A stretch of 34,905 nucleotides of DNA. Source: Gammaproteobacteria bacterium. GTDB taxonomy: Bacteria > Pseudomonadota > Gammaproteobacteria > GRL18. The notes under the pieces were generated by a model that saw only the letters and a list, made by a program, of their open reading frames with translations, was not told where the DNA came from and did no database searches. Location of the stretch: assembly GCA_027012135.1 (NCBI GenBank), contig JALUZF010000078.1:1-34905 (forward strand). The letters are read 5' to 3'. Shown here piece by piece: positions 12,839-34,905 of the stretch. A program made the position numbers and the translations under genes. Each line of letters starts with the position of its first letter. The first letter of the stretch is position 1.

Positions 12839-13951
12839 CTAATGAGCCATACCCGCCAGTCGTTCTGCCTTGGCAATTTCAAAATTCAGCTTGCGGATCT
12901 GTTCTTTTTTATAGCTGATGGCCTGACGGGTTAACTGGCTGCGTGTTTCATCGCATAATTCACCCTCTAATTCATCTGCCAGCTTGCGGGCAATTTCCAG
13001 CAGCTTTTCATAGGCCTGATAATTATCTGTTTTTGCCGGTAGGCGCATAAACAGTGAGATCCCTGGTGTACTAAAGTTTTCCGCCGCGGCAGGGTCAGAA
13101 TCAAAAGTGCCCGGTTCAACAATATTGGCGACACTGAACAAAGCCCAGGTATTGGGATTATTATCCCCGGGATAATGATAAATATTCATTTCACCGAACT
13201 GCAGTCCGGCTCCTTCCAGGGCCCGGTACAGTTCAGTACCGCTAAAATATTTATCCTTTGCCAGGATACTATGGGAAATAATTAAATCCTCAACCCCTTC
13301 AGGCAAAGACACCGGCATAATTTTAATGCTCTGCTGTGGCTGTGTCTGCTTACTGACTGCAGCAGGTTCAGCCTGTTCAATGGTTTGAGTTATATTTTCG
13401 CTGGAAGATATTTCAGCAGATGGTTCCGTTATTATCTGCTCAGGTTCAGGGTTGGCTTCAGCAGACGATTCCTGATTTGCAGCACTGTTTTCAGCTGGTG
13501 ATGCTGTGTTTTCAGTCTGCTCATTGTGCACTGCCGATACCTGGTTTTTATGGGCAGCAAAGGTATCAGTCTGGGTTTTAAATGACGGTATTGTATTAGT
13601 ATTGTTCTGCCTGATAACACGTTTGGTATTGATATAAACACCATCAACCAGTTCCCGCTCGTCATGTTTATTTAGTGCGCTATTATGGGCCACTGAATCA
13701 TTACTCAGGCTGACCTGCTCAATATCAAAATTATCATTTCGACTGGCAGAAAAAGAAACCGGCAGTTCAGTATCATCTACCGCCAGATTACCATGATCCT
13801 TTAATAACACATCATCGATATCATGCGCATGATTATTAAAACTTTCTATTTCATCATTAATTTTTTTATGATGCTTATAATAAGTAAACATGGCCACCAG
13901 CAGCACTACGCCGATACCCGCAATAATCAGTAAAAATATAAGTTTGTCCAT
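12839..13951 (-). CDS. zipA: Cell division protein ZipA
   Basis: A 370-residue inner-membrane division protein that tethers FtsZ to the membrane. The N-terminal segment (about 4-25) is a signal-anchor with the N-terminus outside. A long variable, acidic and Ser/Glu/Gln/Ala-rich linker (about 30-215) follows, and the C-terminal FtsZ-binding domain occupies about 225-350 (LIISHSILAKDKYFSG, FGEMNIYHY and FSTPGISLFMRLP are typical). It lies between smc and ligA with 17- and 19-bp gaps, consistent with one transcript. Confidence 0.96.
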   Translation of the reverse strand: MDKLIFLLIIAGIGVVLLVAMFTYYKHHKKINDEIESFNNHAHDIDDVLLKDHGNLAVDDTELPVSFSASRNDNFDIEQVSLSNDSVAHNSALNKHDERELVDGVYINTKRVIRQNNTNTIPSFKTQTDTFAAHKNQVSAVHNEQTENTASPAENSAANQESSAEANPEPEQIITEPSAEISSSENITQTIEQAEPAAVSKQTQPQQSIKIMPVSLPEGVEDLIISHSILAKDKYFSGTELYRALEGAGLQFGEMNIYHYPGDNNPNTWALFSVANIVEPGTFDSDPAAAENFSTPGISLFMRLPAKTDNYQAYEKLLEIARKLADELEGELCDETRSQLTRQAISYKKEQIRKLNFEIAKAERLAGMAH

Positions 13952-33070: not shown

Positions 33071-33111
33071 ATTATATTTTAATTGTCTGAAAGCGCCTTA
33101 ACTCATATCAA
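33071..33111 (-). promoter_or_regulatory. FNR/DNR-like box and consensus -10 for the hemerythrin operon
   Basis: On the minus strand, TTGAT-ATGA-GTTAA (33111-33098) matches the FNR/DNR consensus TTGAT-N4-ATCAA at 8 of 10 positions. A perfect TATAAT (33076-33071) follows. With a start near 33064, the box centre (33104.5) falls at about -41, the class II activator position. The box overlaps the last codons and stop of mnmH, so it is partly constrained by coding. The leader would be about 34 bases. Confidence 0.6.
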
Positions 33112-34237
33112 GGATTTTGTTCTGATTGGCGAGAATCTGATGAGAATTACCGCGAAAAACAACCCGTTCCTGTTTCTTTTCCAGCTGATAATCATACATG
33201 GGATCATAGTACGAGGTTAATAAAGCCTCTATCCAGAGTTTGTGCTGGGCAACTGAACCGCTGGATTGCTGCTCATTCAGTGCCGCTGACATCAGTCTGT
33301 TGATGGACTGATAGCATTCTCCGCCAAGGCGTTTTTTAACCCGTTCCAGGCTATTGAGCAGATAATCAGAAAACATCTCAAAAGCCGGTTTTGAAAAATC
33401 CTGCGCATCATCCTTTATCGGGTTATCGGCCAGATAGCGCTCATAACAGGCATAGAGATCAATCACATAATCTTTGAGAATAACATTAATGCGATAGTCC
33501 AGATCTTCCTCAAGCATAACCAGCGGAGCTTCCGTCATTTTGTCTCGTAAAGACTGAGGCAGGCATAAGCTGCCTATCATCCGGCCTTCATCCTCCAGCC
33601 AGAATCTATGTGCCCCGCCGGCCCGCAGACGCATCAGTAAAATGGCCAGGGTATTTTCAAAGTTGATCTGACTGGGCTGGCCGTTGGGGAAACGCCCAAA
33701 ACTCGATCCCCGATGATTGGCCAGCTCTTCCAGATCAATGCTGTGACTCAGTTCTTTTAATAACCAGGTTTTACCGGTACCAGTTTTGCCTCCCAGGATA
33801 ACAAAATTGGACAGTTCTATACCCTGTTGGAGTTCATCAATTAATACCCGGCGCATGGCTTTATAGCCACCATTAACCAGGGGCAGCTCTATACCCTGCT
33901 CTTTCAGCCACTGCTGGGCAGTTCTGGAACGCAAACCACCCCGAAAACAGTACAGGTAGCCATCAGGATGCTGCTCTGCAAAACGCTTCCACTGAGCAAT
34001 CCGCTGAGCTTTTATCTCACCGCTGACTAGCTTATTGCCCAGTTTTATGGCCGCATCCTGACCAGCCTGTTTATAACGAGTGCCCACTTCGTGGCGTTCC
34101 TGATCATTCATCAGGGGCTGGTTAACAGCATTGGGAAAGGCGCCCTGCTCAAACTCGATGGGAGCCCGGACATCCATTAGCGGAACATTTTTAAGAAACA
34201 GGGAGCGTATCAGTTCTCTATCTATTGCATTGGCCAT
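33098..34237 (-). CDS. mnmH: tRNA 2-selenouridine synthase MnmH (SelU)
   Basis: A 379-residue enzyme that exchanges sulfur for selenium at the wobble 2-thiouridine of certain tRNAs, via a geranylated intermediate. The N-terminal rhodanese domain has the catalytic C97 in YLYCFRGGLRSR. The C-terminal half has a P-loop GGKTGTGKT (149-157) that binds the tRNA-modifying nucleotide or isoprenoid phosphate region. It is full length with intact motifs. The selenium donor, selenophosphate, comes from SelD; just upstream in the same direction is only what looks like the tail of a broken selD. Confidence 0.94.
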   Translation of the reverse strand: MANAIDRELIRSLFLKNVPLMDVRAPIEFEQGAFPNAVNQPLMNDQERHEVGTRYKQAGQDAAIKLGNKLVSGEIKAQRIAQWKRFAEQHPDGYLYCFRGGLRSRTAQQWLKEQGIELPLVNGGYKAMRRVLIDELQQGIELSNFVILGGKTGTGKTWLLKELSHSIDLEELANHRGSSFGRFPNGQPSQINFENTLAILLMRLRAGGAHRFWLEDEGRMIGSLCLPQSLRDKMTEAPLVMLEEDLDYRINVILKDYVIDLYACYERYLADNPIKDDAQDFSKPAFEMFSDYLLNSLERVKKRLGGECYQSINRLMSAALNEQQSSGSVAQHKLWIEALLTSYYDPMYDYQLEKKQERVVFRGNSHQILANQNKILDMS

Positions 34238-34255
34238 AAAATTAACTCATCAGTG

Positions 34256-34456
34256 TTAGAGAGGCAACGATTTCATATGGGGTATTTCTGAGCTGGGTTC
34301 AGCATCTGTTGCCGCTCCAATTATCTGAGCCTGATAATAACCTGCTTTGTGTAACTGCCGCAAACAATCATCCGGTTTTGAAATATTAAAAAGAAATGAT
34401 TTACTGATATTGATTGTTAATTTTAACAATAGTGGATATTTTTTTCCAGACAGCTT
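34256..34456 (-). pseudogene. selD: Probable selD remnant (C-terminal end only)
   Basis: Reading the minus strand, a frame open from 34456 to a TAA at 34258-34256 has no usable start (its only ATG is nine codons from the stop). It encodes DDCLRQLHKAGYYQAQIIG near the middle, which looks like the closing segment of selenophosphate synthetase (D-x-C-L-x-x-L-H-x-A-G-Y-x-Q-A-x-x-I-G). The DPQTSGG motif expected just before it is not recognisable. selD is the usual upstream neighbour of mnmH, and the stop here is 18 bases from the mnmH ATG. The match is by recalled family pattern, so it needs a database check. Confidence 0.5.
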
Positions 34457-34482
34457 TTATTAGCATCATATTTTATAGCAGG

Positions 34483-34673
34483 CATAAAAAAAGCCCATTA
34501 ACAAAATGGGCTTTCAGGCTTTAAACCTGTATCGCTAAAATATCAGAAACGAATCATACAGTGCATTTCTAGTAGCATCCTGCTAATTAGTTGCGCCTTA
34601 TTTTTATCGCTGAACCGCTTCTTTTAAAGCATTTTATTAATTCAGGTTTTCGCTCCCCCGTTTCCCCTTAGTA
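34483..34673 (-). ncRNA. Candidate small structured RNA, about 190 nt
   Basis: Between a plausible promoter and a strong terminator on the minus strand lies non-coding sequence with several nested stems: CTGAA/TTCAG around GCTT/AAGC, TAGCA-GGA-TGCTA (34568-34580), and CTGTAT/ATACAG. GGA also occurs in a GGGGAAACGGGGGAGCG stretch near the 5' end, and a GGA in a hairpin loop is a CsrA/RsmA-type feature. I recognise no known family (not tmRNA, 6S, 4.5S, RNase P or a c-di-GMP riboswitch). The class is open. Confidence 0.4.
34486..34515 (-). terminator. Rho-independent terminator, leftward
   Basis: AAAGCCCATT (34490-34499) and AATGGGCTTT (34506-34515) form a perfect 10-bp stem with a 6-base loop. 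On the minus strand the stem is followed by a run of seven T residues (34492-34486), the classic form. It ends a leftward transcript coming from the right, with no gene in that position, and separates it from the selD remnant. Confidence 0.8.
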
Positions 34674-34679
34674 GGTTTT

Positions 34680-34709
34680 ATTATGTGCTTTATATAAAAA
34701 CACATCCAA
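34680..34709 (-). promoter_or_regulatory. Candidate promoter for the small RNA
   Basis: On the minus strand TTGGAT (34709-34704) and CATAAT (34685-34680) are 18 bases apart, near-consensus -35 and -10 boxes. The predicted start is about 34673, upstream of the structured region. The surroundings are AT-rich, so chance matches are likely enough to keep this tentative. Confidence 0.4.
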
Positions 34710-34905
34710 CTATATAAAAAAAGAAGGGAAAACCCTAATATTTCATAAAAAAACAACTAAGCCACTGTATTTAAAGGGAATATGATTTTATTAAAAATCA
34801 TATATTATTTAAAGCATAGCATCACAAGAACTATATACGATTTGGCAAATGTGTTTTTATGGTCAAAAAAACTGTTTTTTTAATAATTTACAGTTTATTT
34901 ATAAC
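34710..34905. other. AT-rich non-coding stretch with an inverted repeat
   Basis: No gene is seen here. Poly-A and poly-T runs are frequent. ATATGATTTT (34780-34789) and AAAATCATAT (34794-34803) form a perfect 10-bp inverted repeat, flanked by TATTTAAAG direct repeats at 34768-34776 and 34806-34814. It could be a regulatory region for a gene beyond the window edge or decayed sequence. Confidence 0.5.

Follow-up and report, generated by a model that had tools for sequence, protein, structure and literature searches.

The window analysed here, 34,905 nucleotides in length, is the entire contig C78 of a gammaproteobacterial draft MAG (G000; 3.9 Mb, 325 contigs, contamination estimated at 4.59%), and towards its right end lies an intact mnmH gene, also named selU or ybbB, on the minus strand at 33098-34237. 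Its predicted product of 379 residues, a tRNA 2-selenouridine synthase, scores 516 bits with the equivalog profile NF008751, whose cut-off is 361, and carries the rhodanese-type cysteine motif CFRGGLRS at residue 97 and the P-loop GGKTGTGK at residue 149, all of which place it within the MnmH/SelU family. MnmH requires selenophosphate for the selenation of tRNA and is able to geranylate tRNA without it (PMC9105526, PMC4830565), and ybbB is reported to lie often in one operon with selD (PMC2432076, PMC5029168). The frame just upstream of mnmH had been predicted to resemble the end of SelD, and this was borne out both by its position and by its homology to the C-terminus of the ndh-selD gene of G002, which is the closest relative of G000 (MnmH 94% identical). 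DNA and protein alignment to that gene delimits a remnant of the last part of the SelD domain at 34242-34372 (minus strand), which retains about 29 codons in the ancestral frame, reading DDCLRQLHKAGYYQAQIIGAATDAEPSSE, before a 1-bp deletion near 34282 shifts the frame, and which still ends at the ancestral TAA stop codon at 34244-34242. The remnant is 90% identical to the C-terminus of the intact G002 protein over 31 aa (tblastn), or 93% over 29 aa, and further relatives have weaker matches in the corresponding position. About 45 SelD residues had been claimed for this fragment; the stretch from 34372 to 34242 is indeed selD-derived, but only those 29 or so codons are in the ancestral frame. 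Likewise, of the interval 34256-34456 first assigned to selD, only the part lying within 34372-34242 belongs to it, since the part above 34379 is ancestral promoter and 5′ leader, and the mechanical open reading frame at 34256-34429 (minus strand, 57 aa, TTG start) is not native. A profile search of this 34256-34429 fragment against the SelD family gave no match in NCBIfam or Pfam because the fragment is too short, lying at or beyond the profile end, and homology and synteny with the intact selD of the close relative (G002 contig C15, same neighbours) were used instead. These, together with the loss of the catalytic N-terminal part (about 2.2 kb deleted) and of the reading frame through the 1-bp frameshift, confirm at the sequence level that the fragment preceding mnmH is truly what remains of an NADH-oxidoreductase/SelD fusion gene. 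It is a real pseudogene, ordinary in kind, and the gene loss itself is also ordinary.

In G002, the order is cobW, an intergenic region of about 545 bp, ndh-selD (773 aa, TTG start at C15:1828) and mnmH. Comparison with close relatives thus gives an intact ndh-selD at the syntenic position and an ancestral selD-mnmH locus, in agreement with the earlier view that selD, the normal upstream partner of mnmH, is broken here. Window positions 34905 to 34361 (minus strand) correspond to G002 C15:1293-1830 at 86% identity; a second block begins near 34379, covers mnmH and corresponds to C15:4011 onward at 92%, so that about 2.2 kb are missing in G000. The deletion junction lies at 34365-34379 (minus strand), and its two sides in G002 are the imperfect repeats AAAACCGGAT and AAAAGCAGAT, 2200 bp apart. 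As read from these alignments, an imperfect 10-bp repeat marks the two ends of the deletion, about 2.2 kb long, through which ndh-selD was lost, and a 1-bp frameshift came afterwards. The contig ends at 34905, which is the only reason why the window stops there, and its last 126 bp (34780-34905) overlap at 100% with contig C256 of the same genome, which continues with cobW as in G002 and G004. It had also been proposed that a terminator and small-RNA region replaced the N-terminal part of selD. We reject this replacement, given that the region is the ancestral cobW-selD intergenic region, present at 86% identity and at the same place in G002 and G004, where selD is intact at least as far as the contig allows in the latter; by this comparison the RNA-like element, the terminator and the operon promoter are all ancestral, and it was the deletion that brought them next to mnmH.

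For the ndh-selD-mnmH operon a promoter is predicted at 34420-34448 (minus strand), TGGAAA-N17-TAAAAT plus a TG extension. It was called by pattern scan together with family conservation: the scan alone does not raise 34448-34420 above the shuffled background, and a promoter-like motif TGGWAAAA...TTGTTARAAT is conserved in 16 of 17 family loci, ahead of selD or, in loci that have lost selD, ahead of mnmH. As a result of the deletion, mnmH would now stand behind this predicted operon promoter with a leader of about 180 nt. Further upstream, between cobW and selD or mnmH, there is an ancestral intergenic RNA-like element at 34481-34667 (minus strand) that is conserved in two genera, with the pattern 5′ ACYRAGGGGA...GGGGAGC followed by an intrinsic-terminator-like hairpin at its end. 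A possible long-range helix pairs ACCUG with CAGGU in G000 and ACUUAA with UUAAGU in the sister genus; the folding z-score is −2.41, RNAalifold on 10 rows supports the terminator hairpin only, and a search of Rfam at gathering and relaxed thresholds gave nothing credible. The idea that this element is a selD leader is weakened, because the element stays in genomes without a linked selD. Just upstream of it, at 34690-34760 (minus strand), there is a conserved palindrome-like sequence, TAGGGTTTTCCCTT (TAGGGTTAACCCTT in relatives), a possible operator or promoter part.

The genome search for another selD found one, intact, on contig C204: with TIGR00476 there is a single SelD over the cut-off in G000, at C204:14864-15778 (292 bits against 125). 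It is part of a 753-aa NDH-SelD fusion (TIGR03169, 485 bits against 310), it has the catalytic-type motif GGCGAK with Cys418 and Lys421 present, and it falls below the cut-off of TIGR04369 fusion_not_SelD (459 against 700), so that profile and catalytic motif agree on a true SelD. Adjacent to this ndh-selD are SenB (427 against 300) and a selenate-type ABC binding protein (393 against 250), and the same contig encodes SenA (L059:2913-5153), over the cut-off only narrowly (425 against 420), as well as EgtD (408 against 291), the enzyme that makes hercynine, an OvoA C-terminal-type methyltransferase beside SenA, and a PatB-type C-S lyase. With SenA, SenB and SelD encoded together, C204 carries a complete predicted selenoneine locus on an acquired island. 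As to selenocysteine, no SelA was found in the draft genome, the best SelB match reached 100 bits against a cut-off of 242 and the best tRNA-Sec match 43.3 against a gathering score of 47 bits; these sub-threshold matches are probably translation GTPases and ordinary tRNAs. With none of the three over its cut-off, selenocysteine is unlikely to be made, and by gene content selenium in G000 probably serves tRNA, through MnmH, and selenoneine.

These genes bear directly on the original prediction that the cell recently lost its selenium use and that MnmH, if no other selD exists, could only geranylate tRNA or use another donor. The intact second SelD removes the premise of a geranylation-only MnmH, and the presence of SenB, SenA, EgtD and a selenate transporter component on the SelD contig leaves the loss of selenium use without support. 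That tRNA selenium use alone was lost, with MnmH left to geranylate 2-thiouridine or decaying, would agree with the missing operon partner, with the lack of Sec genes over cut-off and with the known geranylating ability of the enzyme, but we consider it improbable, because mnmH is intact, with its active-site motifs, and keeps its predicted promoter in a genome that encodes SelD. Most probably, the resident selD was deleted without harm to the cell because the selenoneine island was already present, with a SelD that supplies SenB and most likely MnmH. In the ancestor, ndh-selD would have been the first gene of a selD-mnmH operon; the island would then have brought SenA, SenB, EgtD, a selenate ABC transporter and its own ndh-selD, making the resident selD redundant, and the latter would have been lost when about 2.2 kb between two short imperfect repeats were deleted, which left the promoter, the leader and the last 130 bp or so of ndh-selD before an intact mnmH. 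Given that selenophosphate acts in trans, the island SelD would make it for SenB and most likely for MnmH too. We infer here that the island SelD is expressed and active, that it supplies MnmH, and that acquisition preceded loss.

This reading depends on C204 belonging to G000, and the opposite case, in which C204 is a contaminating contig and the organism truly has no SelD, must be weighed. The assembly is a MAG with some estimated contamination, the tetranucleotide make-up of C204 is intermediate between the core contigs of G000 and G009, and its sequence has only weak paralogue matches in the nearest relatives, G001-G004. Nevertheless, an intermediate composition is as expected for an acquired island, and G009, G014 and G017 share most of C204:40001-47511 at 80-87% identity, G016 sharing part of it, while C204:50143-52000 is shared at 79-82% by G005, G009, G014, G016 and G017. 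Contig C117 is a hybrid of two kinds of sequence: C117:12001-12882 resembles the island in G009, G016, G017 and G005 (82-88%), and C117:12906-23454, which holds ordinary genes, corresponds to chromosomal sequence of G002 and G004 (85-93%). At their starts, C117 and C204 overlap over 172 bp with an identity of 98% (not 100%). In G009, a single 245-kb contig has homologous sequence for both C204 and the island edge of C117, and G005, a separate MAG of the same genus, also has the island and lacks the linked selD. Since C117 joins island to native sequence and overlaps C204, we take C204, as judged from the assembled contigs, to be part of a chromosomal island of G000, and a wholly contaminant C204 was judged unlikely. 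The stretch C117 ~12,883-12,905 is the boundary between acquired island and native chromosome, and no tRNA was found at the island edge on C117.

The proposed takeover of the resident gene's role by the island was followed across 24 family genomes, G000 included. SenB is present in six of them (G000, G005, G009, G014, G016 and G017), and in the same six an island-type NDH-SelD is present and mnmH has no linked selD. Conversely, selD is linked to mnmH in ten genomes without SenB (G001, G002, G008, G010, G011, G013, G015, G018, G019 and G022), and in G004, also without SenB, the linked selD runs off the contig end. Counting the genus of G000 and one sister genus, where the region upstream of mnmH could be read, the mnmH-linked selD is lost in 6/6 genomes with SenB and 0/10 without (Fisher p = 1.2e-4, uncorrected for kinship, and a single loss may be common to the four genomes of the sister genus). 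G007 restricts the rule to these two genera: it belongs to a third genus, its mnmH is only 50% identical, and it has no SenB although its mnmH and selD are unlinked. G000 and G005 are of the same genus and differ at the locus, the former with the remnant and the latter without any remnant and with a 209-aa open reading frame, which suggests separate events or separate decay. That frame (G005 C447:342-971) has an N-terminal membrane-like segment and occupies the place of the missing selD, after the RNA-like element and before mnmH. Across the two genera, the island-type NDH-SelDs are 92-94% identical and group in a single shallow clade, whereas the mnmH-linked SelDs are only 63-70% identical between G002 and other genomes, and the simplest reading of this difference is that the island spread by horizontal transfer. 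A stand-alone SelD is encoded as well in G009, G014, G016 and G017, so that the replacement there need not be the island NDH-SelD. In G009 (C4:76965-80795), the stand-alone SelD has a SenA-like gene on either side and lies about 10 kb away from the island NDH-SelD, and by these annotations some relatives carry two SelDs on the island.

A wider proposal, which we put forward tentatively and which falls somewhat short of being probable, is that a mobile selenoneine island repeatedly takes over the selenophosphate supply in this family, with the resident selD deleted, the promoter and mnmH kept, and tRNA selenation made dependent on the island.

An assembly misjoin that hides an intact selD would fit a junction with short repeats in a draft assembly judged from its contigs, but it is very improbable, since no other G000 contig carries the linked ndh-selD, the remnant has an additional frameshift, and five other genomes show the same loss. 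Least credible of all is a functional small protein encoded by the 57-aa frame, for although G002 has the same residue at most of the 29 in-frame positions, this residual identity fits a recent deletion, the TTG start falls within the old 5′ leader, no family matches, the second half is frame-shifted and ends early, and other sen-bearing genomes have no such fragment.

The acquisition of the island and deletion of the resident selD, our preferred explanation, touches on several known facts, namely that SelD is common to several selenium traits, that selD-ybbB operons and NADH-oxidoreductase-SelD fusions exist, and that selenium traits undergo horizontal transfer (PMC2432076, PMC5029168). The ancestral family layout, with ndh-selD directly upstream of mnmH, is that of the selD-ybbB operon of the 2-selenouridine trait (PMC2432076, PMC5029168), from which G000 and five relatives differ by having deleted selD while keeping mnmH and the promoter. 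The fusion of SelD to an NADH oxidoreductase (COG1252, PMC2432076; TIGR03169 with TIGR00476) is the architecture of the island gene and, judging from G002, of the deleted one, but the two belong to separate deep clades that are about 48% identical to each other. In the open-access literature, we found no paper on the replacement of an mnmH-linked selD by the selD of a sen island, and repeated replacement would be a modest, testable novelty. The case corrects the tempting inference that a broken selD means lost selenium use, and it suggests how a core metabolic step may pass to an island for an accessory natural product. Selenium-trait surveys that rely on the selD-mnmH neighbourhood can misjudge island-bearing genomes, and the family offers a natural test of whether selenophosphate from a sen-locus SelD can serve tRNA selenation. 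If true, the dependence of tRNA selenation on the selenoneine island would entrench the latter.

Finally, in the selenoneine pathway as outlined in a summary of Kayrouz et al. 2022 (PMC9814287), SelD/SenC makes selenophosphate, SenB a selenosugar, and SenA moves selenium to hercynine. Compared with the senABC cluster in that outline, C204 likewise has SenB, SenA and SelD on one contig, along with EgtD and a selenate transporter protein, but its genes are dispersed over about 35 kb instead of compact, its SelD is an NDH fusion, and its SenA stands beside the OvoA C-terminal-type methyltransferase. Because SenA is barely over its cut-off and this methyltransferase adjoins it, the final product of the C204 locus might be a selenium compound with a methyl group or some other modification instead of plain selenoneine.
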